Shown in pieces: positions 6,302 to 30,324 of a stretch of 64,000 bases of DNA. A program made the position numbers and the translations under genes. Each line of letters opens with the position of its first letter. The stretch's first letter is position 1. The DNA comes from Aureibaculum flavum. GTDB lineage: Bacteria; Bacteroidota; Bacteroidia; Flavobacteriales; Flavobacteriaceae. Location: positions 248,001 to 312,000 of the forward strand of contig NZ_JAEHFJ010000001.1 of assembly GCF_016406085.1 (NCBI RefSeq), read 5' to 3'. The notes under the pieces are model-generated. The model was not told the DNA's origin. It was given only the letters and a program-made list of their open reading frames with translations, and made no database searches.

Positions 6302-8641
6302 TTAATGTTTAATCTTTCTACTTTTTTGGGCCGTACTCAGCGAGTAAGGCGTGTTTTCTGGGTTACTTGCCCACTCCTTATTGGGTGTATTACCCATACT
6401 AAATTTGAGTTCACCTCCTTTTTGCAAATCATCAAATTTTAAAAAACTGTTTTGGTAATCAGCTCCGTTAAGACTCGCTTTTTGAATGTAAAAATTATCC
6501 TTACCATTATTTTCTGCTTCAACAATGAACGTATTTCCATTTTCCAGATGCAATGTAGCTTTATCAAATAAAGGGCTACCAACCACATATTCATCGGCTC
6601 CAGGAGTTACTGGGTAAAATCCTAAAGCACTAAAAACATACCAAGCAGAAGTCTGACCATTATCTTCGTCTCCACAATACCCATCAGGTGTTGCTGAATA
6701 CAATGTTGTTAATACTTTCCTTATTTTCTCTTGTGCTTTATAAGATTTGTTAGCGTAATTATAGAGATAAATCATATGTTGTATTGGTTGATTTCCATGT
6801 GCATAATTCCCCATATTTACAATTTGCATTTCTCTAATTTCATGGATTGTAAATCCATAATAAGAGGCATCAAAAACTGGAGGCATATTAAAGACCTCGT
6901 CTAATTTTTCATCGAACTTATCTTTACCTCCCATCAATTCGATCAATCCATCCACATCATGAAAAACAGACCATGTATAGTGTACACTATTCCCTTCTGT
7001 AAATGCATCTCCCCATTTTAGTGGATTAAAGGGGGTTTGAAATTTACCATCTTTATTTTTACCTCGCATCCAAGAAGTTTCTGGATCAAAAAGGTTTTTA
7101 TAATTCATTGATTTTTTATAATATGTATCTGCAATTTCAGTTTTACCTAACTTTTCAGCCATTTTTGCAATGGTAAAATCTGCATAAGCATATTCTAACG
7201 TTCTGGCAGCATTTTCATTAATTCCCACGTCATATGGAACATACCCTAAATCATTATAATAATCTACGCCTGCCCTACCCACAGAATTTACAGGTCGCCC
7301 TTCACTAACCGTTGCATTTTTTATCAAAGCCTCCATAAGTAGATCCGTATCTAAATCTTTAGCACCTTTTAAAAAGGCATCCGCAATAATCGGTGCAGAA
7401 TTTGAACCAATCATACAATCACGATGACCAGGACTAGCCCACTCTGGCAACCATCCTGATTCTTTATACGTATTTTCTAGACCTTGAACTATTTTACTAT
7501 TTAAATCAGGATACATCATATTAAAGAAAGGAAATACCGCTCTAAAGGTATCCCAAAAACCATTATCAGTAAACATATAACCGGGCAGTACTTCTCCATT
7601 GTATGGACTGTAATGTACTACTTCATTAGCTGCATTAAATTCATAAAATTTTCTAGGGAAAAGCAATACGCGATATAGACTTGAGTAAAAAGTCCTAATG
7701 TTATCAATATTTTGATCTTCAATTTGAATTCTATTTAGTTCTGTATTCCAAGCCTGTTTTGCTTTTTCTTTAGTCTGCTCAAAACTATCCTTTCCTATTT
7801 CCCTATCTAACGTTATTTGAGCTTGCTCTGGACTTATAAAAGAAGATGCCACTTTTACATTGACAGTCTCCCCTTTTTTCGTTTTAAATCCAATAATTGC
7901 ACCCACGTGCTTCCCTTCACTTTCTGTAACATTCTCCAACAATTTCCAATCATCAGTCCATGTATGATTGATTTCGAAATCTTTATCAAATTCTGCTACA
8001 AAATAATTGTGAAAATTTTCAGGAACACCACCACTATTATTTCGACAATACCCAATAATTTTGCGTTCTTTAGGTAATATTTTAACCATAGATCCTTTAA
8101 AAAAAGCATCTAACATTATGTATGACTTTTCAGATTCTGGAAATGTAAATTTAAAATGAGCTGCTCTTTCGGTTGGAGAAACTTCAGCGGTTACATCATA
8201 ATCTGCCAAATACACTTTGTAATGATATGGTTTAACAGTTTCTGCCTTATGCGAAAACCAAGACGCACGTTCATCTTCTTGAAATTTTAAATCGCCTGTA
8301 GTTGCCATAAAAGAAAATGCCGCATAATCATTAATCCACGGACTAGGTTGATGCGTCTGCTTTATCCCTCTAATTTTATTTTCATCGTATTTGTAGGTCC
8401 ACCCATCACCCATTTTAGAGGTCATTGGTGTCCAAAAATTCATTGCCCAAGGTGTCGCTATAGCTGGGTACGTATTACCATTAGATAAACTAAAATCAGA
8501 ATCAGTACCCATTAGAGGATTTACATAATCAACTAAATCTACAATTTGTTTTGTTTTCGTTTCTATGCTACCATTATCCGTTTCCTTTTTACAAGAAATA
8601 ATGGTCATAAATAAGGATACTGCTATAATTTTAATTTTCAT
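6302..8641 (-). CDS. GH92 family alpha-mannosidase, lipoprotein
   Basis: Calcium-dependent exo-alpha-mannosidase family acting on mannose-capped glycans at the cell surface or periplasm. 779 residues; the N-terminus MKIKIIAVSLFMTIISCKK is a lipoprotein signal with Cys17. It begins with VDYVNPLMGTDSDF and GNTYPAIATPWAMNFWTP, and carries YAHGNQPIQH (about 612) and GDEDNGQTSAWYVFSALGFY (about 650-670). The motifs differ from the other two GH92 proteins in this window (GNEPSHH, GNED), so a different linkage preference is likely. It is the last gene of the cluster starting at 16573, 110 nt after the preceding gene, and may also have its own promoter there, though none is clear. Confidence 0.93.
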   Translation of the reverse strand: MKIKIIAVSLFMTIISCKKETDNGSIETKTKQIVDLVDYVNPLMGTDSDFSLSNGNTYPAIATPWAMNFWTPMTSKMGDGWTYKYDENKIRGIKQTHQPSPWINDYAAFSFMATTGDLKFQEDERASWFSHKAETVKPYHYKVYLADYDVTAEVSPTERAAHFKFTFPESEKSYIMLDAFFKGSMVKILPKERKIIGYCRNNSGGVPENFHNYFVAEFDKDFEINHTWTDDWKLLENVTESEGKHVGAIIGFKTKKGETVNVKVASSFISPEQAQITLDREIGKDSFEQTKEKAKQAWNTELNRIQIEDQNIDNIRTFYSSLYRVLLFPRKFYEFNAANEVVHYSPYNGEVLPGYMFTDNGFWDTFRAVFPFFNMMYPDLNSKIVQGLENTYKESGWLPEWASPGHRDCMIGSNSAPIIADAFLKGAKDLDTDLLMEALIKNATVSEGRPVNSVGRAGVDYYNDLGYVPYDVGINENAARTLEYAYADFTIAKMAEKLGKTEIADTYYKKSMNYKNLFDPETSWMRGKNKDGKFQTPFNPLKWGDAFTEGNSVHYTWSVFHDVDGLIELMGGKDKFDEKLDEVFNMPPVFDASYYGFTIHEIREMQIVNMGNYAHGNQPIQHMIYLYNYANKSYKAQEKIRKVLTTLYSATPDGYCGDEDNGQTSAWYVFSALGFYPVTPGADEYVVGSPLFDKATLHLENGNTFIVEAENNGKDNFYIQKASLNGADYQNSFLKFDDLQKGGELKFSMGNTPNKEWASNPENTPYSLSTAQKSRKIKH

Positions 8642-8751
8642 ATTTGATATATAATTTTATCTTATTACTTGCACTTACTACTTAAACCAAAGTCATATTT
8701 TAAAAAAGTATAGACTTCTTTGGCTCTTAATCAAATTAATTAAGCTCAAAT

Positions 8752-16573: not shown

Positions 16574-16988
16574 AGCTTTAGAATTTGACAGCAGTTTAGT
16601 TATAATTTTGAATATATCACATTTTTTTCGACGAATGTATTGATTTTCACATTTAAAGATATGAAAATTTGATTAAAATGCAGTTCGAAAAATCTTGTCT
16701 ACCTTACCTTTCTCTCAATAACAATAAAAAGCGTTATTGAATATGTTATTTAGATTATCATTAACTGTGCATATATAAAATACAGGACAGGTTTAACAAA
16801 TCTTAACCATAATTTAGTCAATATCAAGTTTTATTAATTCATTTAAATTTCAAAATTGAACTACAATTAAAAAAACACAATTCCCTTTTATTCTTAATTT
16901 TAAATTACAACATATCAATTGATTATATTATTTTTTAAGGATTTATTAGGATATTTGCTTACTTTTAGCATAAAAATTGCACATTTTA
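16574..16988. promoter_or_regulatory. Divergent intergenic region with an 8-bp palindrome
   Basis: 415 nt between the cytochrome cluster (minus) and the T9SS protein (plus). A perfect inverted repeat TCAATAAC/GTTATTGA (16715-16722 and 16733-16740) with a 10-nt spacer is a possible operator. I find no full TTG-N17-23-TAnnTTTG promoter for either gene; TTTG at about 16955 followed by TAAAAATTG is the nearest on the plus strand. No RNA gene or ORF is visible. Confidence 0.4.
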
Positions 16989-19034
16989 ATGTTTAAGAAG
17001 TCAAACTACTATTTCCTTTTTTTATTCTTAATCTCTTTTTTGGGGTCAGCACAAAATGCTCAAATAAACAATGCGGAATTGAATAGGCAAGCATACTGTC
17101 CATTATCAGAAATTAAAATTGTACCTGTATATACCATAGATAATAAAAAAAGTGTAATAAATACAGTAAATGTAAAAATTACAAGCGGCTATCAAAAAGC
17201 ACATGACATGTTAAAATTGACTAATGCTTTATTGCATTTGTCAATTTCTACAAATTGGAATGTGGCCGAAGGCAAGTTAATACTAACCAGTAGTAAAGAT
17301 AAAATATTGACAATAACCGAATGGATATCAGCAGTTAAGGATGTCGCTTACATTAACAACAGTGCTTCGGTTTCAGGTGACCGAACCTTTTCAGTTTTTA
17401 TAAATAACAACAGTAAGAACACGGTAAATACATATATATTTGTTCCGACGATATCTGAAGTGATTGCAAATGAAAGATGTGGTTCAGGTAGTTTAAAATT
17501 ATCAGCAAAAGCCACTGGAGATGTTTATTGGTATGATTCCCCTTCATTAGGAATACCAATTTTTAAAGGTGAAAATTTTATAACACCTATGCTAACTACT
17601 ACTACCACTTATTATGTAGTTGCCGGTTCTGAAGGGTGCTTAGATGGAAAACGAATCCCAATTACCGCAACGGTTTTTAACCTACCTACAGCTCAGAAAA
17701 AAACAGCATTAATAAATTGCGATGAAGATGGGAAACCTGACGGTTTAACATTCTTTAATTTAAAAGAAGCTACAGAATATATGACCTTAGGATATGTCGA
17801 TGATGTTGATATTAGCTACTATATATCAGAAGCCGATGCCATAACTCAAAGGAATGCAATTATTAATCCTGATAATTTCAGTAATGATAAAGCAATTACC
17901 GTTTATGCAAGAATAGAAAATAAAGCTCATTGTTATTTTATTGCGGATTTAGTTTTAAATGTTTCTACAACTGCTTTTCCAGAGGGTTATCAACGAGAAT
18001 TAGTTGGTTGCGATGGAGACATGGTAAATGACGGAATAACTGCTTTTGATTTAACTATGGCAGGAACCGATTTTATGGCACAATTCCCAAAAGAACAAAA
18101 TTTAGAAGTTTCTTTTTTCAGGAGTTATAATGACGCTTTATTAGAAAACAATAAAATTTTAAATGAAACCAATTATTTTAATAAAACTCCATTTAAAGAA
18201 ACATTGTATGTTAGGGTTGAAAATAAGGATAATGGAGCATGTTATGGAATAGGGGCTCATTTAGTTTTAACGGTTATGGCAACACCTGAATTTAAAGTAA
18301 AACCAACTGCTATTTTATGTTGGGAAGAAGGATCAACTAAATTAGAAACATTTGAAGCCGATGATAATTATCGTTATGAATGGACTAAAGATGGCGTTTT
18401 TATCGGAAATACAAGGACTTTAGAAGTTAAAGATGGGGGTGAATATAAAGTAGTAGGTATTTCTACTTACGGTTGTAGATCTATACCACGAACAATCATT
18501 GTTAGGGAAGTAAATACTGCCGTACCTTATATGGATGACATTTCAATTAAAGATGGTTATTCAGATAATAATACAATAATCTTAAATGACAAAAACTTAG
18601 GATTAGGTGATTACGAATACGCACTAGATTCTTTAAAAGGATCTTATCAACCTAAACCCTTGTTTAAAAACGTCACATCTGGCGTACATACTATTTTTAT
18701 TAGAGAAAAGCATAATTGCGGCACATCTAGTATTAAAATTTTCGTATTTGAATATCCACAAAGCTTCACACCTAATAATGATGGAATTAATGATTTTTGG
18801 AATATTACTGAAGGTCTAGATGATATAGCCCCATATAGTGTTACGATTCTTTCTATTTTTAATTCATCAGGACAATTAGTAACAACTATTAATCCATTTG
18901 ATATCGGATGGGATGGTACTGATAATAAAGATAAAGCAATGCCAGAAGGGGTATATAGTTTTGCACTTAACCTTATTGATAAAGAAGGTAAAAAACTAGA
19001 AAGAAAAGGAAATTTTTATTTAAAGAGAGAATAA
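16989..19034 (+). CDS. Secreted protein with T9SS type-B sorting domain
   Basis: 681 residues from the ATG at 16989 (an upstream TTG gives no better start). Signal peptide MFKKSNYYFLFLFLISFLGSAQ. Ig/Ig-like stretches follow, with two related repeats of about 95 residues (INCDEDGKPDGLTFFNL and VGCDGDMVNDGITAFDL, each ending in a YVRVENK/YARIENK-type strand). The C-terminus is a gliding-motility-associated type-B sorting domain: PQSFTPNNDGINDFW, GWDGTDNKDKAMPEGVYSF, ending in KGNFYLKRE. It should be carried over the outer membrane by the type IX system. It is a neighbour of the curli operon, in convergent orientation. Confidence 0.92.
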   Translation: MFKKSNYYFLFLFLISFLGSAQNAQINNAELNRQAYCPLSEIKIVPVYTIDNKKSVINTVNVKITSGYQKAHDMLKLTNALLHLSISTNWNVAEGKLILTSSKDKILTITEWISAVKDVAYINNSASVSGDRTFSVFINNNSKNTVNTYIFVPTISEVIANERCGSGSLKLSAKATGDVYWYDSPSLGIPIFKGENFITPMLTTTTTYYVVAGSEGCLDGKRIPITATVFNLPTAQKKTALINCDEDGKPDGLTFFNLKEATEYMTLGYVDDVDISYYISEADAITQRNAIINPDNFSNDKAITVYARIENKAHCYFIADLVLNVSTTAFPEGYQRELVGCDGDMVNDGITAFDLTMAGTDFMAQFPKEQNLEVSFFRSYNDALLENNKILNETNYFNKTPFKETLYVRVENKDNGACYGIGAHLVLTVMATPEFKVKPTAILCWEEGSTKLETFEADDNYRYEWTKDGVFIGNTRTLEVKDGGEYKVVGISTYGCRSIPRTIIVREVNTAVPYMDDISIKDGYSDNNTIILNDKNLGLGDYEYALDSLKGSYQPKPLFKNVTSGVHTIFIREKHNCGTSSIKIFVFEYPQSFTPNNDGINDFWNITEGLDDIAPYSVTILSIFNSSGQLVTTINPFDIGWDGTDNKDKAMPEGVYSFALNLIDKEGKKLERKGNFYLKRE

Positions 19035-19129: not shown

Positions 19130-20635
19130 TTATTCCCAGTCAGGCATTACACTTTTTTCAAATAATAATGACCTTTCACCATCTAAGATGGTTTGAGTAT
19201 AGATATCTTTTTGAGAAATACCGTCGTTCGAAGTATTTACAAAAATTACCGAAGCTTCATTCGGAGAAAACCGCACATCTAAATCATTAGTTCCAGCTTC
19301 TTTATTGTCTAAAGATAAATCGGAAACGGTATCTGTAGTCAGATTATATATAAAAATATGTGAATCTAATTGTCTACCCGATACATTCTCATAACCTGAA
19401 ATATCACGTGTATATAATAAATTTTGACCATCTACAGATATATTTAACCCTCCAGCTGCACCAGTAACTCCACTAACAATCGTTTTCAAAACGAAACCGC
19501 TCATATCAATAGTAATTATTTTTACGCCGTAACCAATTACATTATTTGTTTTTAAGGCTATAAAACTCTCATCAGAACTCCAATCGACTTCTGTTATAAA
19601 ACTTTCATCAGTGGTTTGATAAACTTGTTGTAAACCGCTACCATCCTTATTGATTACGTATAATTTATCAAAATGAGGGTATAAAAAACGATCTCCATTA
19701 GCAGACCAAGCAAAATCTATTTCATTTTGATTATAACCTGCAATTGAAACCGCAGAAGTTACTTTTTTAATGTTTGAACCATCTGGTTGCATTGTAAATA
19801 AATGAGATTCAGAATTCACTGTTCTTAAAAAACTAATTAATCCCGCAGCTTGGCTGGTTCTTGGTCTCCAACTATTTTGATCGTTTGTGGTTAGTGCTAT
19901 TGCTGAAGTACCGTCTTGATTATTTGAATAAATAATATTGTTTTGATTTATAGAGTCTTGTCTAACATAAAACAATCTATTTTCAGGAAATTGATTAATT
20001 TGGAATTTACTTACGGGTGTTAAAACATCATCATTAACACCATCTGAAACAGTAATTTGCCAAAAATACTTTGCACCATATTTTAAATCCGTTAACGTAT
20101 ATGTGGTGTCTATAATACTTTCTATAAAAATTACACTATCATCAAAATCATTTTTTACCGTAATATCATAAACCAATTCGTCATCTTCATCAGGGTCTTC
20201 AGATGAAAACCATATTAACGGTACTTCAATAGGTAAACCGACAGCATTATCTAAAGGACTATCAATAATTGGAGCTGTTGGAGGCTTGTTTAAGGCATCA
20301 GCATCCTCCATTTCAAAAACCAAATTAATGGTATTGTCAGTTGTAACCGTTGCTGCTTCTATTTTCGCTAAAAAACCATCCTTTTCGGCTTGTGCAGAAT
20401 AATCTCCTGAGGGCACATCAATTAACAGGAAATTTCCTGTAGAATCTGTAAATACCGTATTATTAGTAGGGCTTAACGAAACTTTTACATTCGCTATTGG
20501 TTCAAAACTTTTTGCTTTAACTACCTTACCTGTAATGGTACCTTCTCCAATAGGATTCACCTGATCTTCAGAACAGGCGGTAACCAGTAACCCAGTCACT
20601 ATAAAAATAATTGTTATTTTGTATAAACTTTTCAT
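19130..20635 (-). CDS. Lipoprotein with carboxypeptidase-regulatory-like, Fn3-like and TolB-like propeller domains
   Basis: 501 residues. The lipobox VTGLLVTACSE gives Cys21. A CarboxypepD_reg-like beta domain comes next (ITGKVVKAKSFEPIANVKV, DSTGNFLLIDVPSGDY). An Fn3-like domain follows (PPTAPIIDSPLDNAVGLP, YFWQITVSDG). About 280 residues of PD40/TolB-like blades complete it (NQDGTSAIALTTN, MQPDGSNIKKVTS, DWSSDESFIALK). It lies 26 nt after csgG and ends the curli operon, so it may help assembly or anchor fibres. This role is inferred from context only. Confidence 0.83.
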   Translation of the reverse strand: MKSLYKITIIFIVTGLLVTACSEDQVNPIGEGTITGKVVKAKSFEPIANVKVSLSPTNNTVFTDSTGNFLLIDVPSGDYSAQAEKDGFLAKIEAATVTTDNTINLVFEMEDADALNKPPTAPIIDSPLDNAVGLPIEVPLIWFSSEDPDEDDELVYDITVKNDFDDSVIFIESIIDTTYTLTDLKYGAKYFWQITVSDGVNDDVLTPVSKFQINQFPENRLFYVRQDSINQNNIIYSNNQDGTSAIALTTNDQNSWRPRTSQAAGLISFLRTVNSESHLFTMQPDGSNIKKVTSAVSIAGYNQNEIDFAWSANGDRFLYPHFDKLYVINKDGSGLQQVYQTTDESFITEVDWSSDESFIALKTNNVIGYGVKIITIDMSGFVLKTIVSGVTGAAGGLNISVDGQNLLYTRDISGYENVSGRQLDSHIFIYNLTTDTVSDLSLDNKEAGTNDLDVRFSPNEASVIFVNTSNDGISQKDIYTQTILDGERSLLFEKSVMPDWE

Positions 20636-20661: not shown

Positions 20662-22047
20662 CTAATATTTGGTTTTTGCTTTATTATAAGTTTGCCCTAA
20701 ATAAACAGTGACTCCAAGTCCAAATCTCCAAAAAAAATCATCTCTTTTACCTGCCACTAATCCATCAAGATCATCGTCAAAAAGCACGCTATTTTCCCCA
20801 TACACTTTAAGCCCAATTTTTTTTGTGAGCAAATATTCGAACCCCACACCATATTGCACTTTTGGAGCTTCAAAATCTTTATTTAGTATTATTCCACCAC
20901 CAGCATAAACGAAAGGACTTAAACGATCATAAGGCAAAACAACATACTCTAAATTAGCATCCAAAGCCGTAAATGTTTTATTAAAAATATTTTTATTTCT
21001 CAATTTAAAGATACCTCCATTAACTCCAAAACTAAAATTAGGTCCAAAAAGAAAACTCTTAAACCCAAATGTGGTTTGCAATCCCATTTGTGGGTCGGCA
21101 TAATCGCCATCCATTAAAGAGGTTCCTGCCATGAAATCAAAACCTGTTTTCCCTCTACTATCTCTAAAATTTCTGTCCAATAACTTTGTAGATTCAGCTA
21201 TTGCAGATTCACTTTCATATTCTGCCTTTACTTTGTCGATTACTTTTTGCCCACCTTTAGGTTGCCACAAGCCATCTATAATTCCCTCAACAATAAGATT
21301 TTCCACTGCTTTTTCAATAGCTTCTTTAACAGCCATTTGAGCAGGTTCATTCTGTGTTACTCCAGTTTCAATTTCTAAAAGTCTTTTCACATTTACATAT
21401 CTAAATAAACTAACATCAATTGCTTGAGAAAGAATAGTTTTTGAAATATAAACTGTTTTTAATATTTTACCATTTGATGTTGAAACTGCTCTTAAATATA
21501 TAGAAATGATGTCTTGTCTGTATTGTGTAGAAGCACCAGCACCAAAATATCGAGCTCCAGCACCACCAGTAATCATATTAGAATCGTAAGAAATAATACC
21601 ACCTTCTAATAATATCCCCGCAAAAAGTAATGGAGGTAAGCTGCCTGTTTCATCAACTGGTAGATTATTTTTTCGATTATATTCTTGTCTTGTTGATCGT
21701 ATAATCTGTCTTTCATTTAACAGATTACTCACATTTTCTCTTTCAATTGGAGCAAACCATTTAGAATCATCTAAGGCTTTTATTAGAATTGAGGTCGCCC
21801 CTTGAGTAACCGCTGTACTATAACTAACACCACCTTCAACTAACTTATACTGCCCTGTTTGATCTCTGAATTTATAAACCCCAACTTCTATTGGTTTTAT
21901 GGGGCTTATATCATTTAGTTCACTTTTAAAACTAGTTTCTCCTATACGGGCAGGCTGTGTAGTTAGGGGTTGATTCATATAAGCTCCGCAACCAACCAAT
22001 AGCATTATCATCGCCCAAAGCGTTCCTATTTTAAGTTTTTTCAGCAT
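20662..22047 (-). CDS. csgG: Curli secretion channel CsgG with C-terminal beta-barrel-like extension
   Basis: Outer-membrane lipoprotein channel exporting curlin subunits. 461 residues, against about 277 in E. coli. The lipobox MLLVGCGAYM is followed by the CsgG core (RIGETSFKSELNDISPIKP, GVYKFRDQTGQYKLVEGG, a LLNERQIIRSTRQEY region, GARYFGAGASTQYRQDIISIY, SKTILSQAIDVSLFRYV) to about residue 265. The remaining ~170 residues (from TGFDFMAGTSLMDGDYADP on) are alternating beta strands rich in Gly and aromatics, ending GLGVTVYLGQ, like a small outer-membrane beta-barrel domain. 6 nt after csgF. Confidence 0.92.
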   Translation of the reverse strand: MLKKLKIGTLWAMIMLLVGCGAYMNQPLTTQPARIGETSFKSELNDISPIKPIEVGVYKFRDQTGQYKLVEGGVSYSTAVTQGATSILIKALDDSKWFAPIERENVSNLLNERQIIRSTRQEYNRKNNLPVDETGSLPPLLFAGILLEGGIISYDSNMITGGAGARYFGAGASTQYRQDIISIYLRAVSTSNGKILKTVYISKTILSQAIDVSLFRYVNVKRLLEIETGVTQNEPAQMAVKEAIEKAVENLIVEGIIDGLWQPKGGQKVIDKVKAEYESESAIAESTKLLDRNFRDSRGKTGFDFMAGTSLMDGDYADPQMGLQTTFGFKSFLFGPNFSFGVNGGIFKLRNKNIFNKTFTALDANLEYVVLPYDRLSPFVYAGGGIILNKDFEAPKVQYGVGFEYLLTKKIGLKVYGENSVLFDDDLDGLVAGKRDDFFWRFGLGVTVYLGQTYNKAKTKY

Positions 22048-22053
22048 TAAATA

Positions 22054-22455
22054 TTAATTTGGAATGAATATATCGGACTGCTCTCCTGTCGTTGTATCTA
22101 AAATACCAATAGACAAACCTGTAGACGTTGGAACAAGATCAACAACTAAACTACCAAAAGTAAAGGTACCCTCTTTAAATGACTCATCACCAAAAGTATT
22201 ATTAAACAAATCATTGGTTAATGAACTCAACAATTGACGATTTAAACTCGCAGTAAACTGTTCCAATTCTGTAGCTTGCTCTCCACTACCATCATCTTCT
22301 TTAAATTTATTTTGAGATTCAGCTGAACTCAATAGCCAAGAAGCATTAAAAGGATTACCTCCTAAAAAGGAAGGGTTTGTTGGACTATAGACTAATTGTT
22401 GTGCCGCCATTATACCAGGTATAAAAAACAGTAAAAAAGGGGTTAATTTTTTCAT
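22054..22455 (-). CDS. csgF: Curli assembly protein CsgF
   Basis: 133 residues with signal peptide MKKLTPFLLFFIPGIMAAQ and the diagnostic N-terminal motif QLVYSPTNPSFLGGNPFNAS of the mature CsgF, which in E. coli binds in the CsgG pore and couples secretion to nucleation. The rest (QFTASLNRQLLSSLTNDLF, ending in DTTGEQSDIFIPN) fits the family length. It lies between csgE (11-nt gap) and csgG (6-nt gap) in one operon. Confidence 0.95.
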   Translation of the reverse strand: MKKLTPFLLFFIPGIMAAQQLVYSPTNPSFLGGNPFNASWLLSSAESQNKFKEDDGSGEQATELEQFTASLNRQLLSSLTNDLFNNTFGDESFKEGTFTFGSLVVDLVPTSTGLSIGILDTTTGEQSDIFIPN

Positions 22456-22466
22456 TTTGGTTGGGT

Positions 22467-23192
22467 TTAAAATCTAATTTTTCTCTTGGCTAATAATAAG
22501 CGTTTCCGAGCATACGTATTTATGGCAAAAATTGCCTGTTGTGCCATAATTTCTAAATATTCTTGATTAGGGTTTGTTGTTGTTTTATAAACATCTGTAT
22601 CATCAATAGTTATTGTAATTTCACTATTAATACCAATCATAGGTTTTTCATTTACATTAATGATAAACGGGTATTTTAGACTACTTGAACTGTATTTTTG
22701 ATAAAAATAATCGTAAAAATCTTTGCCTAATTTCGTTATAACGTCATCTACCACTAATCCCATTATTTCAAAATTTTCAGCTTCTGCTTGATTGAATTCA
22801 GTTTTTCTTTTATTTGATATAACGAGTGTGTCTTTAGAAATTAAAAGTTTTTCTTTTCGTATGTACAAAAACAATTTAATTTCTTCATTTGGTTGAATAT
22901 TAATTTTTAGAGTTGATAATTTTTGACTTTCATTTGGTGAAAGTGAAAATATTCCCGCTTGAGAGTTTTTAGAAAGATTACCATTTTCACCATATTTAAG
23001 AGATAATAATAAATATTCAAGATCAGATTGATAGATATTATCTGCATTTTCCGCATACCCATCAATATTAATCAACCCTTCTGAATTTTCTACTTTTAAG
23101 ACTGCTTTTACCGCAATATCGTTTTCTTGTGCCATAAATATGGTACAAAAAAACAAACAAAATCCTGTAAAAAACAAGCGTCTAAAATTCAT
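22467..23192 (-). CDS. csgE: Curli assembly factor CsgE with an extra N-terminal CsgH/CsgC-like domain
   Basis: The C-terminal half (from EAENFEIMGLVVDDVITKLG, with FYDYFYQKY, NEKPMIGINSEITITIDDT and a YLEIMAQQAIFAINTYARKR end) is CsgE, the periplasmic adaptor that caps CsgG and selects curlin clients. The whole protein has 241 residues against about 129 in E. coli. Residues about 25-125 form an added beta-rich domain (NIYQSDLEYLLLSLKYG, NSQAGIFSLSPNESQKLSTL, KLFLYIRKEKLLISKDTL) that resembles the CsgH/CsgC curlin-inhibitor fold by pattern. Signal peptide at 1-21. The fusion is inferred and unverified. Confidence 0.9.
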   Translation of the reverse strand: MNFRRLFFTGFCLFFCTIFMAQENDIAVKAVLKVENSEGLINIDGYAENADNIYQSDLEYLLLSLKYGENGNLSKNSQAGIFSLSPNESQKLSTLKINIQPNEEIKLFLYIRKEKLLISKDTLVISNKRKTEFNQAEAENFEIMGLVVDDVITKLGKDFYDYFYQKYSSSSLKYPFIINVNEKPMIGINSEITITIDDTDVYKTTTNPNQEYLEIMAQQAIFAINTYARKRLLLAKRKIRF

Positions 23193-23239: not shown

Positions 23240-23671
23240 TTAATTATAATTAGTTATAAAAATATGTTGATTATCGGTTTTTTGGTTGATAATAATATTT
23301 TTGGATAAACTATTTTCGCCATAAATATAAATACCATTATTATTACCCGTTTGAAATATTTGCATATTACTGTCTTTTGAACCATAAAAACTCATAAATT
23401 CATAAAAATTTTGATCACCATTTTGAGTTACTTCAAGATTATCTTTAACTGAAGTTTTAATATTAATATAATTATAATCTCCATTCTGAAACAAGGTTGT
23501 TTTTGAAAACATGGTGCTTTTTTTCTCATTTTGTTTTATAGGTTTAGTTTCGCTTTGATTCTGATTAAAATAAGCATTTATCAAGGTAGAATTTTCGTCT
23601 TGTAATTGTTGTGCATTACAGAAACTAAAAGAACCTAAGCAAATTAGCAAGGTTATGTATTTTACATTCAT
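23240..23671 (-). CDS. CsgB-like minor curlin subunit
   Basis: 143 residues from the ATG at 23671, which directly precedes a signal peptide (MNVKYITLLICLGSFSFCNA); an open frame to 23755 gives a less likely lead. The mature part has three to five degenerate curlin repeats (FQNGDYNYINI, VTQNGDQNFYEF, IFQTGNNNGIYIYG) with the Gln/Asn spacing of amyloid rungs, and an Asn-rich end (ITNYN). By position just before csgE and by its short length it is the probable nucleator. It follows csgA by 190 nt with an attenuator hairpin between. Confidence 0.78.
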   Translation of the reverse strand: MNVKYITLLICLGSFSFCNAQQLQDENSTLINAYFNQNQSETKPIKQNEKKSTMFSKTTLFQNGDYNYINIKTSVKDNLEVTQNGDQNFYEFMSFYGSKDSNMQIFQTGNNNGIYIYGENSLSKNIIINQKTDNQHIFITNYN

Positions 23672-23812
23672 AATATTGATTTTTAAGGTAATTAGTTGTA
23701 TCTCAAATATAACAATAATAATTAATACCAATTTAACTAAATAATTACGGGTCAAACAGTTACTGTTTTAATTAAATGATCATAACTCTAAAATTAAATT
23801 GGCATTAAAAGA

Positions 23813-23861: not shown

Positions 23862-25211
23862 TTAATTAGATTGAATTACACCTGCAACATTACCAGTTCC
23901 TATTTGATTAACAGTATGCATATGGTTACCTCCAAATTGACCTACTAATGATAAGTTACCATAACCAATTTGAGTAGAGGTTACTTTACTGTTCATCCCT
24001 TCTTGCCAAATACCAGAAACATTTAAAATTCCATCTTGAGACACACAAGCTCCATTTCCATTTCCAAATTGAGCAATACCTGAAACGTTTAATAGACCAT
24101 CTTGGTCAACAGTTGCATTATTTCTATTACCCTCTTGATAAATACCGCTTAAGTTTAACTCACCATCTTGACGTACATCAGTAATATTTCTATTACCAAT
24201 TTGCTCTGAATAACTTAAGTTAGTTGTACTAAATGGATCATTTTGACCTTGATAAACATCTGACTCATTTCCATTTCCATCTTGTATTTGAAAAGATGCA
24301 TTTGTCACTCCAGTCTGAGTGGAAGTTGCATCATTGTTATTACCCGTTTGATTTTGTTCGGCTAAATTTTGATTTGAATAAAAATTTTGATTGATCCTAG
24401 CATTATTTCCATTACCCTCTTGCATTTGAATAGCCATATTGTCATCAGAACTCCACCATTCACGACCTTCATTCTGATATACCGCAGCTGTGTTTCTATT
24501 ACCATATTGCGTTTGATCAGACACGTTATTCTCATTTGTTTGATAGGCATAAGCATTATTATTATTACCCAAAGCTTGAACCTGTACAGCAGAATTATTA
24601 TAAGAATAACCTTTACCTTGATCTACTAATGCATAATTTCTGTTACCATAAGCCTGCGTTTGAGATGCATAATTATTACCACCGCGTCCATTTATATTTT
24701 GATATACATCCGCATGGTTTTTATTGCCATACATCTGTGTCTGTTCAGAAACATTAAATTGGTCTCCTTGATAAGCATGAGCCCAATTGCCATTACCTCC
24801 CTCTTGAATTTGTACAGCACTGTTATACGCCGTCCATCTGAAACCTTGTTCTATAATAGCTTCATTATTGTTTCCATTTTGGTATTGTTCTGCATAATTT
24901 GCTCCTCCCAGAGACCTACGACCAATGTTTTGCGAAATTCGGGCATCATTTCCGTTTCCATATTGTGTTTGAAATGCTTCGTTCCAAATTGCAGCTTGAT
25001 TGATACGAGCGGAATTCATCTTACCATTTTGATAAACATCTGCAGAGTTTTCCGCATCAACTTGATCTACATCAGAATTGTTTTGTTGACCAACTTGTAT
25101 AATCATTGCTCCATGATCAGTACCTGATTGATCAAGGGTACTCTGGTTACCTTGAGCATAAGAAAAGCCTGTTGCACCAATTACTAGTGCTGTAATAAAT
25201 AATTTTTTCAT
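23862..25211 (-). CDS. csgA: Major curlin-type amyloid subunit, CsgA-like
   Basis: 449 residues. Signal peptide MKKLFITALVIGATGFSYAQ. The rest is about 18 curlin repeats of about 22-29 residues with the core pattern N-x-A-x-x-x-Q...Q-x-G-N-x-N (for example NHADVYQ, NNARINQ, NYALVDQ). Each is a predicted beta-arch rung. Repeats 4, 5, 7, 8, 10 and 13 carry short insertions. E. coli CsgA has 5 repeats and 151 residues. A single Cys occurs in rung 16 (GNGACVSQ). It leads the operon with csgB, csgE, csgF and csgG. Confidence 0.93.
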   Translation of the reverse strand: MKKLFITALVIGATGFSYAQGNQSTLDQSGTDHGAMIIQVGQQNNSDVDQVDAENSADVYQNGKMNSARINQAAIWNEAFQTQYGNGNDARISQNIGRRSLGGANYAEQYQNGNNNEAIIEQGFRWTAYNSAVQIQEGGNGNWAHAYQGDQFNVSEQTQMYGNKNHADVYQNINGRGGNNYASQTQAYGNRNYALVDQGKGYSYNNSAVQVQALGNNNNAYAYQTNENNVSDQTQYGNRNTAAVYQNEGREWWSSDDNMAIQMQEGNGNNARINQNFYSNQNLAEQNQTGNNNDATSTQTGVTNASFQIQDGNGNESDVYQGQNDPFSTTNLSYSEQIGNRNITDVRQDGELNLSGIYQEGNRNNATVDQDGLLNVSGIAQFGNGNGACVSQDGILNVSGIWQEGMNSKVTSTQIGYGNLSLVGQFGGNHMHTVNQIGTGNVAGVIQSN

Positions 25212-25832: not shown

Positions 25833-27161
25833 CTAAAACTCCCGATAAGGAGCCTCCAACAAGGCATTTACTTCCGCTTCTGAGAATTTTGCATTTTCGC
25901 TATCCCAATGCAAGGTTTTATTTGGAAAACGACCTGCAATAACCCCTAATAAAATAGTTTCTGTTAAACGTGAAGCATAAGAAAAGGGTGCAGTACATTT
26001 GTCTTTACCTAGGCAAGCATCAACAAATTGATGGTAATGTTTATTACTTTCTTTGTCATAATCAGTTGTAGGTTTACCTAAATCAGTATATTTTGATAAG
26101 TTTAAATCGACATATTTCCCATCTACAATATGTTTTGGTAATTGCATAAAATGTGGCAATAAAAGACGTCCTTTCTCACCAATAAACATTGCACCTTGAC
26201 CCGGTAATTTTTCTTTATTTGGTAACTTTAAGTCTTTATGCCTTTCAGGTGCACCTTTACCATCATACCAATTCCAAATCATTTCATCAGTCGTATATTT
26301 TGTACCTGGAAAGGTATATTGCACGACGTTTTGTTCAGGAAAACCAAATCCGTTTGGTTTTCTACATGTGTTCTTTATCGTTTTTGGAACGTCCAATTCT
26401 AAAGCATTGTAAGGAGTATCAAAAATATGAACCCCCATATCTCCTAAGGTACCACAACCATAATCTAACAATTTACGCCAGTTCATTGGATGATAATAGC
26501 CTTCTTTATACTCTCTTTCTGCTGAAGTTCCTAACCACAAGTTCCAATCTAATGTTTTAGGAACTGGATCTGAACCTTTTGGTTCGGGACCATCATACCC
26601 CCAATTTTTAGGGGACCAAGCATGAACGGTTTTTACTTTACCTATAATTCCATCTTGAATCAATAAGGTTGCCAGTTTATAGTCATAAAAAGAGTGCACC
26701 TGAATACCCATTTGTGTAACCAAATTCTTATTTTCTGCTATTTTCCTCATGGCTCTTGCCTCCGATACATGATGTGTTAATGGTTTTTGACAATATACAG
26801 CCTTACCATGTTCCATAGCCATCATGGAAGCTGGAGCATGGGTGTGATCTGGTGTAGAAACTATAACCGCATCAATATCATCAGACATTTCTTCAAACAT
26901 AACTCGATAATCAGTGTATGTTTTAGCATTGGGATGTAACTTTTTTGCTGCTGCTAAATAACTAGTATCAACATCGCATAGGGCAACCATATCCACCATA
27001 TCATGACTAGAAATAGCAGCAAGATCTGCTGCTCCCATATTGCCTACACCAATATGAGCGACCCTTAAGCGATCATTTTTAACTAGTGCCCATAATGAAC
27101 TGGGTAAAGCCGCTGTAGCTGCCAATAGTGCTGTATTCTTTAAGAATGTTCTTTTATCCAT
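25833..27161 (-). CDS. Gfo/Idh/MocA family oxidoreductase, exported
   Basis: NAD(P)-dependent sugar oxidoreductase family. 442 residues with a leader of Tat type (MDKRTFLKNTALLAATAALPSSLWA, KR-x-FLK). Nucleotide site HIGVGNMGAADLAAI (about 35-49) and VALCDVDTSY. The catalytic-region motif is CQKPLTHHVSEAR, a QKP variant of the family's EKP. C-terminal features include MNWRKLLDYGCGTLGDMGVH. It is the last gene of the glycan operon, 14 nt after DUF1080. With that partner it may oxidise glycosides at C3 in the periplasm. Substrate unknown. Confidence 0.9.
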   Translation of the reverse strand: MDKRTFLKNTALLAATAALPSSLWALVKNDRLRVAHIGVGNMGAADLAAISSHDMVDMVALCDVDTSYLAAAKKLHPNAKTYTDYRVMFEEMSDDIDAVIVSTPDHTHAPASMMAMEHGKAVYCQKPLTHHVSEARAMRKIAENKNLVTQMGIQVHSFYDYKLATLLIQDGIIGKVKTVHAWSPKNWGYDGPEPKGSDPVPKTLDWNLWLGTSAEREYKEGYYHPMNWRKLLDYGCGTLGDMGVHIFDTPYNALELDVPKTIKNTCRKPNGFGFPEQNVVQYTFPGTKYTTDEMIWNWYDGKGAPERHKDLKLPNKEKLPGQGAMFIGEKGRLLLPHFMQLPKHIVDGKYVDLNLSKYTDLGKPTTDYDKESNKHYHQFVDACLGKDKCTAPFSYASRLTETILLGVIAGRFPNKTLHWDSENAKFSEAEVNALLEAPYREF

Positions 27162-27175
27162 GATAGGTGTTTTTT

Positions 27176-27976
27176 TTATAGTTTTTTAATTTTTATATTT
27201 CTAAACCAAATTGGACTTGAATGATCTTGAAAACCAATATAACCGGTCTTAAAAGTTCCATACAATTTTTCTTCTTTCCACTTACCACCATTCTTTTTAG
27301 CATACCAGTCTTCTGACCATGGAACAAATTCAACCACTTTCTTACCATTTAACCAATACTCAGCTTTTTCGGGTGTAAACAGGATACGCGTGCTATTCCA
27401 TTCGCCTGTTGGATTTAGTCGTTTATTCTCTGGGTTAGCAGCATACATAGCATAATCTGCCGCAGTAGATTGTAAAGGGTGTAACTCCGATGGATTTTCA
27501 TAACCAAGACTTGTATTATATGCTGTAAGGCTGTGAATTTTAGCATAATTTTCATCATCTATCAGTTGATATTCTGGAGCAATATTCGGTGGCCCTGCAT
27601 TTGGAATATTCTCTTTAAGGTGATAAAATATTCCACTATTTCCGCCTTCAGGTATTTTCCATTCTACATACAATTCAAAATTGTCAAATTCTTCATCACC
27701 ATAAATAATATCTTTTCCTCCTTTATAATCTTGCTCTAAACCAAGTTCAGTATCAAAGGTTAAGACACTATCTTTAACAATCCACCCTGGAGGTAAGGCA
27801 TCACCATTATAAGCTCGCCAACCTTTAGTGCTAACGCCATCAAAAAGGGTAATCCAATCATTAGAAGTTTTATTTTCAATTTGTGCTGTATCTTTACTTT
27901 CCACATCTTTTTTTGAATCCTCTTTACAAGAAATAGCACCACAAGACACTATTAAAAACATCATTAATTTTTTCAT
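27176..27976 (-). CDS. DUF1080 (3-keto-glycoside hydrolase-type) lipoprotein
   Basis: 266 residues; lipoprotein signal MKKLMMFLIVSCGAISCKE. The DUF1080 jelly roll starts WITLFDGVSTKGWRAYNGD, with GDEEFDNFELYVEWKIPEGG, NSGIFYHLKE, GEWNSTRILF and ends YIGFQDHSSPIWFRNIKIK. Characterised members are 3-keto-disaccharide hydrolases acting with a Gfo/Idh/MocA dehydrogenase. The oxidoreductase gene follows 14 nt downstream and supports that pairing; GH20 precedes it by 29 nt. Substrate in this operon is not shown. Confidence 0.92.
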   Translation of the reverse strand: MKKLMMFLIVSCGAISCKEDSKKDVESKDTAQIENKTSNDWITLFDGVSTKGWRAYNGDALPPGWIVKDSVLTFDTELGLEQDYKGGKDIIYGDEEFDNFELYVEWKIPEGGNSGIFYHLKENIPNAGPPNIAPEYQLIDDENYAKIHSLTAYNTSLGYENPSELHPLQSTAADYAMYAANPENKRLNPTGEWNSTRILFTPEKAEYWLNGKKVVEFVPWSEDWYAKKNGGKWKEEKLYGTFKTGYIGFQDHSSPIWFRNIKIKKL

Positions 27977-28005
27977 AATTCTTTAATATTTTATTACAAC
28001 ACGTA

Positions 28006-30324
28006 TTATTCTACTAAAATTTCATCTATGAACAAAAATACACCTCCACCAGATGGTGCTTTTTTGAGATTTGTAGCAATTACTTTAATAAATTTAGTCT
28101 CTTGTTTACCAAATTTAATTATAAAATCTTTAAGTTCAGAACCTGCGTTATTGGCATAAGGTCTAACTAAATTTCCAACACTATTAAAATTTTCTCCATC
28201 ATCAGAAACAAATACTTCAATTTTTGTGGGGAAATAAATACTAGGCCCTTGACTCTCTAATGCACCTACAGTAACTTTACTAACAGAAGTTGGTTCATCT
28301 AAATTTATAACCACTTCCATATTTTCATTTAACCACGCTTGCCATTGACCATCATGGAAATTTTTTGTACCTCGTAAAGTATTTACTAAGGTACTCGATC
28401 CAGAGCCTTTATATCTATCGTTATAAGGTATTTCATAATCAACTACTTTGGCTACACCGTTGTGGAATTTTATAGTATCTATAAAAGCTTTTCCAATAGG
28501 CTTATCATTTTCGAATAAAGACGCCTTTACAACGGTAGATTCTGAAATTTCTATTGGATTAACGTACGGAATAGCCTTCTCGCCTAATTTTACATCACCC
28601 AAGACATATCTAATGTCAGATTTTGGAAATTCATTTTGCAACGTTAAATTTATTGATTTTTTGTCCAAATCAATTTCCATGTTAGAAGTTACAATATAGG
28701 CACTTTTTGCATAATTAATAGCTAAGACTTCGTATCTCAAAAATTGTGTTTTTATTCTTTTTGAAAAATCATTCCAGTCTCGTAATTTTATTGGTGACCA
28801 AAGAGTTTCAGATAATGCTGCTAACCTTGGAAAAATCATATATTCAGAATGAGAAGTAGTGGGTATGTGTTCTGCCCATAAATTTGCTTGGCCACCCAAT
28901 ATATGCTTTGCTTCTTTTTCTGACATCCCTTCAACTATCGGATTAAATTGATATACTTTACTCAATGGAAGAAATCCTCCTTGAGCAATAGGTTCTTCAT
29001 TTTGCGGCCCTTGATAATGGTCAAAATAACAGTAACCGCCTGGAGACATAATTACATCATGCCCTTGCTTTGCTGCTTCCTCGCCACCTTTAAAACCTCT
29101 CCAACTCATAACAGTTGCCTCAGGTGCTAAACCACCTTCTAAAATCTCATCCCATCCAATTAATTTTTTACCTTTACTATTGATAAACTTTTCCATTCGT
29201 TTTACAAAATAACTCTGTAATTCATGAACATCTTTTAAACCTTCCGTCTTCATTCTTCTTTGACAATCAGGACATTTCTCCCAATTGGTTTTGGTAGCCT
29301 CATCACCCCCAATATGAATATACTTAGAAGGAAACACTTCCATAACTTCTAACAATACATTTTCTAAAAACTCAAAAGAAGCCTCTTTTCCTGCACAGTA
29401 AATATCAGTAATTGGCCAAACACTTCCAGAAGGAACTGCCACTGGGTTACCATGACATGTCAATTCAGGATAAGCAGCCATAACGCTGGTAACGTGAGCT
29501 GGCATTTCAATTTCAGGAATTACGTCAATATTATTTTGAGCAGCATAAGCCACAATTTCTTTTAGTTCTTTTTGAGTTAAAAACCCTCCATAGGTTCCCT
29601 TTTCTTTAGGGTCATTTTTATCTCGAGCACTCCACGGTTTTTCTTCTTGATCTACTCGCCACGCAGAAACCTCTGTTAATTTTGAATATTTTTTAATTTC
29701 CATTCTCCAACCTTGATCGTCAACCAAATGTAAATGCAAAACATTCATTTTATGCATTGCTAGTCTATCAATGGTTTTTAAGATATATTCTTTAGGAAAA
29801 AAATGACGCGATAAATCAAGCATTAATCCTCTATGACGAAAACGTGGCTTGTCTTTTATTTCAATTGTGGGTAAAATTAAATCTCCATTAGTATCAGTTC
29901 CATAAATTTCAGCCGGAAGTAACTGTAATATACTCTGTACGCCATATAGAAATCCACCTAAGCTATTAGCTGTAACTATAACTTTCTTATCCGTTACAGA
30001 TAATTCATAAGCTTCATTTTCTAGATCTTCTTTAACTACAAATTCAATAAAATTACTTTCCGATCTCTCACTAAAATCTAATTCAATATTTGAAGACGAT
30101 TTCAACTTATCTGTTAATATATTTGCTATGTTTTTTAAACTATCATGAGCTATAATTTTAGTATTTTCATCAATAATAAATGAACCTTTATTTAAAGTCA
30201 ATTCAGCGGGTTTTGGTATAATATTTATATCATTTACCGTAAAATCTTTGCTTTTACTATTATCAGAACATGAGTATAAACTGATTATAAAAATGAGTGT
30301 TAGAAATTTAAAGTGTTGTCGCAT
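28006..30324 (-). CDS. GH20 beta-N-acetylhexosaminidase, lipoprotein
   Basis: Removes terminal beta-GlcNAc/GalNAc by substrate-assisted catalysis. 772 residues. Lipobox FIISLYSCS (Cys19). GH20b domain then the barrel: RGLMLDLSRHFFPKEYILK, LHLVDDQGWRMEIKKY, VIPEIEMPAH, and HIGGDEATKTNW with the catalytic pair Asp341-Glu342. After about residue 545 come a chitobiase-C-like stretch and a discoidin-like domain (KNFHDGQWQAWLNENME) ending GGGVFLFIDEILVE, like the ends of the two proteins at 8752-11672. 9 nt after GH2; removes GlcNAc exposed by it. Confidence 0.95.
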   Translation of the reverse strand: MRQHFKFLTLIFIISLYSCSDNSKSKDFTVNDINIIPKPAELTLNKGSFIIDENTKIIAHDSLKNIANILTDKLKSSSNIELDFSERSESNFIEFVVKEDLENEAYELSVTDKKVIVTANSLGGFLYGVQSILQLLPAEIYGTDTNGDLILPTIEIKDKPRFRHRGLMLDLSRHFFPKEYILKTIDRLAMHKMNVLHLHLVDDQGWRMEIKKYSKLTEVSAWRVDQEEKPWSARDKNDPKEKGTYGGFLTQKELKEIVAYAAQNNIDVIPEIEMPAHVTSVMAAYPELTCHGNPVAVPSGSVWPITDIYCAGKEASFEFLENVLLEVMEVFPSKYIHIGGDEATKTNWEKCPDCQRRMKTEGLKDVHELQSYFVKRMEKFINSKGKKLIGWDEILEGGLAPEATVMSWRGFKGGEEAAKQGHDVIMSPGGYCYFDHYQGPQNEEPIAQGGFLPLSKVYQFNPIVEGMSEKEAKHILGGQANLWAEHIPTTSHSEYMIFPRLAALSETLWSPIKLRDWNDFSKRIKTQFLRYEVLAINYAKSAYIVTSNMEIDLDKKSINLTLQNEFPKSDIRYVLGDVKLGEKAIPYVNPIEISESTVVKASLFENDKPIGKAFIDTIKFHNGVAKVVDYEIPYNDRYKGSGSSTLVNTLRGTKNFHDGQWQAWLNENMEVVINLDEPTSVSKVTVGALESQGPSIYFPTKIEVFVSDDGENFNSVGNLVRPYANNAGSELKDFIIKFGKQETKFIKVIATNLKKAPSGGGVFLFIDEILVE

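Follow-up and report, generated by a model that had tools for sequence, protein, structure and literature searches.

A CsgE adaptor with a CsgC/CsgH-like N-terminal domain in Aureibaculum flavum, and a candidate recoding site at the domain junction of its split relatives

The window analysed here, a stretch of 64,000 nucleotides of the Aureibaculum flavum genome (contig NZ_JAEHFJ010000001.1, positions 248,001 to 312,000), contains a curli gene cluster on the minus strand, in which two curlin genes are followed by the gene of a CsgE fusion protein, csgF and csgG. The first curlin gene (23862..25211) encodes a curlin subunit of 449 aa with 10 curlin-repeat matches (Pfam PF07012, E 3.8e-29), which also matched the NCBIfam CsgB model at E 5.2e-36, under the cut-off. 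The second (23240..23755) encodes a small curlin-like protein, CsgA/CsgB-like, that matched the NCBIfam CsgA model NF007470 (E 6.5e-5, under the cut-off); its listed start codon is TTG and may not be the true start. The fusion protein of 241 aa is encoded by a single uninterrupted frame at 22467-23192, and its nearest named relative found was a protein of Aureibaculum marinum, with 78% identity over residues 5-241. Then come csgF (22054..22455; Pfam PF10614, E 2.2e-37) and csgG, the gene of the outer-membrane secretion channel (20662..22047; Pfam PF03783, E 5.9e-61). About 195 residues of CsgG beyond the CsgG domain hinted at an outer-membrane beta-barrel, with a non-significant match to Pfam OMP_b-brl (E 0.51). 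Directly after csgG, on the same strand, the frame at 19130-20635 encodes a CarboxypepD_reg domain with weak fn3 and beta-propeller hints, and its product is a possible operon partner. Just beyond the curli genes, on the opposite strand, lies the gene of a protein with a terminal CHU_C type IX secretion signal domain (16977-19034). The region upstream of the curli genes on their own strand (25833-30324) encodes a GFO/IDH/MocA oxidoreductase, a 3-keto-disaccharide hydrolase and a GH20 glycosyl hydrolase.

The fusion protein starts with a signal peptide, followed by a beta domain of seven strands, a linker and a CsgE domain, all encoded on the minus strand. The signal peptide (residues 1-22; 23127..23192) is a hydrophobic N-terminus that formed a helix at residues 2-21 in the AlphaFold2 model. 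It ends in ...FMAQ, an end assigned without a cleavage-site predictor, and Q22 is at least 90% conserved. The second part, residues 27-126 (22815..23114), is a CsgC/CsgH-like seven-strand beta-sandwich, identified by NCBIfam, Pfam, a PDB-sequence profile, and the structural model with Foldseek; it is called the N-domain below. The linker (residues 127-142; 22767..22814) was modelled with low confidence at residues 130-140 (pLDDT <50). The CsgE domain (residues 143-241; 22470..22766) matched Pfam PF10627 at 143-231 (E 3.8e-18) and passed the curated cut-off with 66.1 bits vs 25. It adjoins csgF and csgG, and the family profile of this part matched CsgE 2na4 among the PDB sequences at E 1.6e-12.

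The relationship of the N-domain to CsgC and CsgH was detected at the level of sequence. The initial annotation had proposed an extra CsgH/CsgC-like domain on CsgE and pointed to three patterns in it, and all of them were present in the translation: LLSLKYG at residues 62-68, SQAGIFSLSPNESQKLS at 77-93 and KLFLYI at 106-111. The proposal itself was borne out by the NCBIfam, Pfam, PDB-profile and Foldseek matches. The window protein alone matched the NCBIfam models of CsgH (NF041112, residues 32-113, E 1.2e-5) and CsgC (NF007507, residues 64-111, E 2.4e-4) and the Pfam family Tafi-CsgC (PF10610, residues 62-110, E 0.004). The three scores fall under the curated cut-offs (25.2 of 35 bits for NF041112, 21.2 of 75 for NF007507 and 17.6 of 25 for PF10610), and annotation at these cut-offs would therefore miss the domain. 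Some fused relatives, for example G518, G502, G514 and G609, passed the cut-off of NF041112. Among the 34 full-length relatives of alignment A1, CsgH was matched by 26 (best E 1.5e-11), CsgC by 15 and Tafi-CsgC by eight at E <= 0.1. When a profile of the N-domain only was compared with the PDB sequences, CsgC (E 6.6e-4 and 7.1e-4) was the sole match below E 1; the single N-domain sequence also found CsgC first (E 0.017), with unrelated chains starting from E 0.32.

The predicted fold pointed to the same proteins. The AlphaFold2 model of the fusion protein had a mean pLDDT of 89.8, with seven strands within residues 28-126; by 10-residue blocks, the pLDDT was 77 at 21-30, 92-97 across 31-120 and 81 at 121-130. 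The CsgE part was modelled as mixed helices and strands. Since the pTM of the whole model was 0.49, the two domains were not placed relative to each other. A fold like that of CsgH and CsgC had been expected, and among 350,542 PDB chains these two were indeed the top two Foldseek matches, with CsgH 2n59 at rank 1 (E 2.7e-6, TM by target 0.67) and CsgC 2xsk at rank 2 (E 5.9e-6, TM by target 0.79). The matches that follow are other beta-sandwich proteins, including GH2 enzymes, transglutaminases and Spo0M, at E 1e-5 to 1e-4 and with poor target coverage. The upstream protein of one split relative described below (L057) was also modelled with seven strands (mean pLDDT 83.4) and gave CsgH at rank 1 and CsgC at rank 5, with GH2 chains between them, and three of the 34 relatives matched DUF1425 in Pfam. 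These results could suit a generic beta-sandwich, Ig-like or of the GH2 type, with no more than a resemblance to CsgC/CsgH, but this is highly improbable: the TM by target was 0.67 and 0.79 for CsgH and CsgC vs 0.07-0.29 for the other 48 matches listed, CsgC/CsgH were found by sequence-only searches, and the gene sits among curli genes. A generic beta-sandwich unrelated to CsgC/CsgH was rejected on the PDB profile search and the Foldseek ranking.

The source genome (4.75 Mb, 40 contigs, 100% complete by tool estimate) was searched for a second CsgC or CsgH and none was found, in a search that a strongly divergent inhibitor would escape; it contained one CsgE, one Tafi-CsgC match and one CsgH match, the latter two both on the fusion frame. 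In a draw of 395 genomes across the phylum, 41 had CsgE (the CsgE match of G468 contains a stop), and the NCBIfam CsgH model, which was built independently, matched 21 of the 41 at E <= 0.01. In the window's order, 15/16 CsgE genomes were matched, at the N-domain of CsgE or, where the locus is split (two cases), directly before it. Elsewhere the match was found in 6/25 CsgE genomes (G406, G621, G434, G544, G468 and G579, the last with two copies), always on a frame separate from CsgE and near csgE-F-G. These stand-alone csgH genes lie on the csgE-csgF-csgG strand beyond the curlin genes; in G544, in which no curlin was found, csgH lies beyond csgG. Outside the order, separate csgH genes were located at the distal end of the curli loci, at L134:8523-8936, L135:8366-8776, L136:2916-3455, L138:5713-6441 and L139:2583-2957, that of L138 forming the last part of an open frame of 243 aa, and L137 carries two copies in a row (7819-8262 and 8266-8718). 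A custom profile of the N-domain, to which six of the order's 16 CsgE genomes had contributed, added the sixteenth genome of the order (G160) and found five of the six stand-alone cases. Weak matches of this profile were not counted (the CsgE frame of G398, E 0.025; L140, E 0.18; L148, E 0.027; and G272, which is without CsgE, E 5.2e-4).

A fused and a stand-alone CsgH were found together in none of the 41 CsgE genomes of this draw. The fusion had been put forward as the explanation for the missing separate csgC/csgH gene, and this held in part: the sole CsgC/CsgH match in the genome is the fusion frame, and the 0/41 co-occurrence fits replacement. In 19/41 CsgE genomes of the phylum draw, neither the CsgH model nor the custom profile detected a CsgC/CsgH, so CsgE systems appear able to do without an inhibitor that can be recognised. 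Another domain was also seen ahead of CsgE outside the window's class, namely LysM, in four of ten proteins scanned (L034, L037, L046 and L048); as a guess, it might anchor the adaptor to peptidoglycan.

Within the window's family, the fusion was the rule. Of 249 genomes drawn from the family, 56 had CsgE, and the N-domain profile matched within the open frame of CsgE in 55 of them; 29 of the 56 had contributed to the profile and so match by construction, and 27 are independent. The remaining genome (G033) gave a match in a local search of its open frames (E 1.1e-8). Two of the 56 carry caveats, namely a partial match in a frame cut by a contig end (G232) and a stop inside the CsgE match (G242). 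The idea that the fusion is a peculiarity of the source genome was rejected, as all 56 CsgE-bearing family genomes drawn have the domain. One genome (G171, L150:4008-5222) encodes two tandem CsgH-like domains before CsgE in one frame of 405 aa.

Some relatives carry the two parts in separate frames. The first cases came from the phylum draw, in which G551 and G559 had short CsgE frames and a CsgH-like frame directly upstream. From the genus of G551 (g127), which we infer to be Flavobacterium, 249 genomes were drawn, 60 of them with CsgE; 27 of the CsgE frames were of 112-129 aa (split) and 33 of 241-275 aa (fused). The split set (n=28) comprised these 27 and G559 (L057, L058, L154-L166, L168-L172, L174, L177 and L181-L186), and the fused set (n=35) comprised the 33 fused cases except G758, which makes 32, and three loci of the phylum draw (G522, G574 and G382). 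In all 28 split loci, the product of the upstream frame, 132-142 aa long when counted from the chosen ATG, is CsgH-like: it matched NCBIfam CsgH at E <= 0.01 and has its own ATG and, by inspection, a signal-like N-terminus. The CsgH-like and CsgE frames overlap at a run of exactly 10 A followed by G, with an identical offset in 28/28 loci, and this A10-G is always read in the upstream frame as GAA or CAA, AAA, AAA, AAG. The short CsgE frames were considered as assembly errors, and this was rejected on the run and phase shared by 28/28. Of the 24 split CsgE frames checked, 12 had no ATG, GTG or TTG ahead of the core, and no signal peptide was seen by inspection in any of the 24. With starts missing in half of these frames and no signal peptide, translation of the CsgE frame by itself would not be expected to bring CsgE to the periplasm.

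In the split relatives, the slippery run is conserved, the two frames stand in a constant relation and the CsgE frame is under selection, which suggests from the sequences that the junction is a likely recoding site, where slippage or frameshifting would give both a free chaperone and the fusion. As to a possible stimulatory structure for -1 frameshifting, the RNA downstream of the run was more stable than shuffled sequences, with a mean z of -1.66 for the 70 nt from +4 and 11/28 loci below -2, and in a scan with 60-nt windows the mean z right after the run (-1.08) was the lowest of 31 windows, followed by -0.98 and -0.96. No common stem downstream of the run was seen by eye in the 28 loci. 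Instead of recoding, the junction might reflect phase variation at a contingency site, decay of the gene or an error in sequencing the homopolymer. Homopolymers are mutable, a fused relative (L175) has 11 A, and phase variation was among the frame transitions in the GeneTack study, in the part of it available (PMC3711429). In a tree of 70 sequences (35 fused, 28 split and 7 outgroup rows), fused and split forms were mixed: the clade that holds most split loci also holds four fused genes, three of which have a junction run of A10 or A11 and the fourth none, and the tree needs four changes of the split label, two of them forced by well-supported branches. However, 27/28 split loci fell into that one clade with support of 100/99, with L186 elsewhere, and the run has exactly 10 A in the same frame relation in 28/28 loci, though Lys codons elsewhere in the split genes are AAG in 101/607 cases (AAA in 506/607). 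The split CsgE parts, with pairwise identities down to 0.42, were still under purifying selection (median dN/dS 0.10; 201/378 pairs, pS under 0.70), and of the frames checked, half have no start codon ahead of the core and none showed a signal peptide on inspection. On this evidence, an origin of the junction in phase variation, decay or sequencing error is doubtful, and recoding is the reading that we prefer. The window gene has no A10 run at its own junction, so the recoding idea is not applicable to it.

A run of 9-11 A was retained at the junction in 7/35 fused genes examined, the A11 gene L175 included. In these seven, shifting the frame forwards or backwards at the run of the junction led to a stop within five codons (14/14 shifts); a second run in L179, of 9 A, gave stops after 0 and 17 codons, one of the two within five. 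As controls, ordinary codon positions of the 35 fused genes gave a stop within five codons in 49% of single shifts and in 21% for both directions, and the N-domain end of the 28 fused genes without a run did so for 27/56 single shifts and, in both directions, for 6/28. Because these genes are related to one another, the nearby stops can only suggest that slippage would release a free chaperone from them.

The charge of the N-domain bears on whether it still acts as an inhibitor. CsgC and CsgH have a pI more than 2 units above that of CsgA, the weaker inhibitor AgfC is only 0.5 above it, and mutants of CsgC indicate that positive charge on the large sheet is critical for potency (PMC4838910, in the parts available). 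In the window, the N-domain has a pI of 4.78, the large curlin 4.34 (a gap of 0.44) and the CsgE half 8.18. By alignment to the PDB profile and the numbering of PMC4838910, Arg40, Lys57 and Lys60 of CsgC correspond to Glu59, Ser77 and Gly80 of the window protein. The N-domain of the window protein contains no cysteine, and any Cys was found in only 1/34 relatives, so neither a CxC motif nor a CsgH-type disulphide is present; the C37S mutation had little effect on the potency of CsgC (PMC4838910, same parts). Net basic character relative to curlin and the basic residues tied to potency were not found in the window N-domain. With an acidic domain that has no Cys and no basic residues at the CsgC positions, the window protein could inhibit only weakly or in a differently tuned way.

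Along the same line, the N-domain could descend from CsgC/CsgH but no longer block nucleation, and now help the protein to oligomerise, extend the CsgE cap for docking to CsgG or simply act as a spacer. Its acidity, which most relatives share (median pI 5.51 among the 34, above 7 in just 11), and Glu59 in the place of Arg40, in view of the charge patch that matters in the CsgC mutants, would agree with this. Against it, the Arg40 position is Arg or Lys in 22/34 relatives, a stand-alone csgH was never found alongside the fusion in the 41 CsgE genomes, the domain of the split loci is separable from CsgE with a start and signal-like N-terminus of its own, and G171 carries two tandem copies. We consider a loss of inhibition unlikely.

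Our results are best explained if the window protein is a covalent CsgH-CsgE chimera, in which a periplasmic curlin chaperone domain of the CsgC/CsgH type is fused to the CsgE adaptor, and we regard this as very likely, with the chaperone role as a putative one. The homology and predicted fold of the N-domain, the homology of the CsgE part, the gene context, the lack of any other CsgC/CsgH found and the conserved arrangement were computed here, and we infer that the N-domain inhibits curlin amyloid formation. CsgC and CsgH are described to suppress the nucleation of CsgA at low ratio via transient, charge-driven contacts, and CsgE to bind CsgA and cap CsgG as a nonamer (PMC5135000, PMC6957492, PMC6050966, PMC4838910, each in part). 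After Sec export, the N-domain of the fusion would transiently bind unfolded curlin and suppress nucleation, and the CsgE domain, a nonameric cap under CsgG in E. coli, would dock the curlin-bound complex at CsgG. Up to nine chaperone domains on flexible linkers could then ring the pore entrance and feed non-aggregated subunits into the channel, and a chaperone tethered to the CsgE cap would be the simplest reading of the fusion. In the split relatives, the default product would be the free CsgH-like chaperone, and the CsgH-CsgE fusion would arise where RNA polymerase slips and adds one A or where the ribosome shifts by -1, which suggests that soluble and adaptor-bound pools of chaperone are both useful. 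Taken as a whole, it is probable that Flavobacteria merged an anti-nucleation chaperone with the adaptor, that the invariant A10-G of one lineage sets the ratio of free to pore-bound chaperone by slippage or -1 frameshifting, and that fused genes with A9-A11 would release free chaperone.

How aggregation-prone curlin stays soluble and reaches the CsgG pore is an unsettled question, and it is this question that the fusion addresses. In E. coli, chaperone and adaptor are two different proteins, CsgC and CsgE, and the sequence in which they act has been inferred. A fusion found in nature is evolutionary evidence that chaperone and adaptor act on the same subunit in the same place, and it offers a single polypeptide for testing the hand-over. 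The split lineage, too, can serve as a natural experiment, one where the recoding site may determine how much of the chaperone is free and how much is fused, and recoding in an envelope assembly system would be an unusual use. All Bacteroidetes genera were stated to lack csgC in a survey seen in part (PMC3521004). The fusion partly explains this, in that the domain lies inside csgE in the window's family and scores under curated cut-offs. A CsgH-like sub-family in Bacteroidetes has been noted in PMC4838910, whose main text has no occurrence of "fusion" or "fused"; this sub-family may correspond to the fused domains described here. In the open-licence papers, no description of a CsgC/CsgH-CsgE fusion was found, nor one of recoding of csg genes. 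No curli gene was mentioned among recoded genes in the searched parts of PMC5009743, PMC1088944 and PMC3711429. The parts are known; what appears to be undescribed is their architecture, the fact that it is the rule in the family, and the split form with A10.

Recoding of the dnaX type takes place at A-runs or A_AAA_AAG sites. The recoded A-run genes of bacterial IS elements, as far as PMC1088944 was available, resemble the split relatives, in which A10-G likewise holds A_AAA_AAG in the zero frame and two products are possible from one start. The alphaproteobacterial CsgH (2n59; NF041112) has its fold, its sequence family and its presence in a curli cluster in common with the window N-domain. 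However, CsgH is encoded by a separate gene, whereas the window domain is the acidic N-terminal half of a CsgE protein. E. coli CsgC (2xsk, 2y2t; PF10610) is like the N-domain in its fold and in a sequence match of about 50 residues. Compared with CsgC, the window protein is fused to CsgE, has no CxC, and is not basic at the positions of Arg40, Lys57 and Lys60. CsgE (2na4; PF10627), whose fold differs from that of CsgC/CsgH (PMC5135000, in part), is like the C-terminal 100 residues of the window protein, but CsgE of E. coli is without a CsgC-like domain. The LysM-CsgE proteins of other Bacteroidota also carry an extra N-terminal domain, but in them it is LysM, not CsgC/CsgH.
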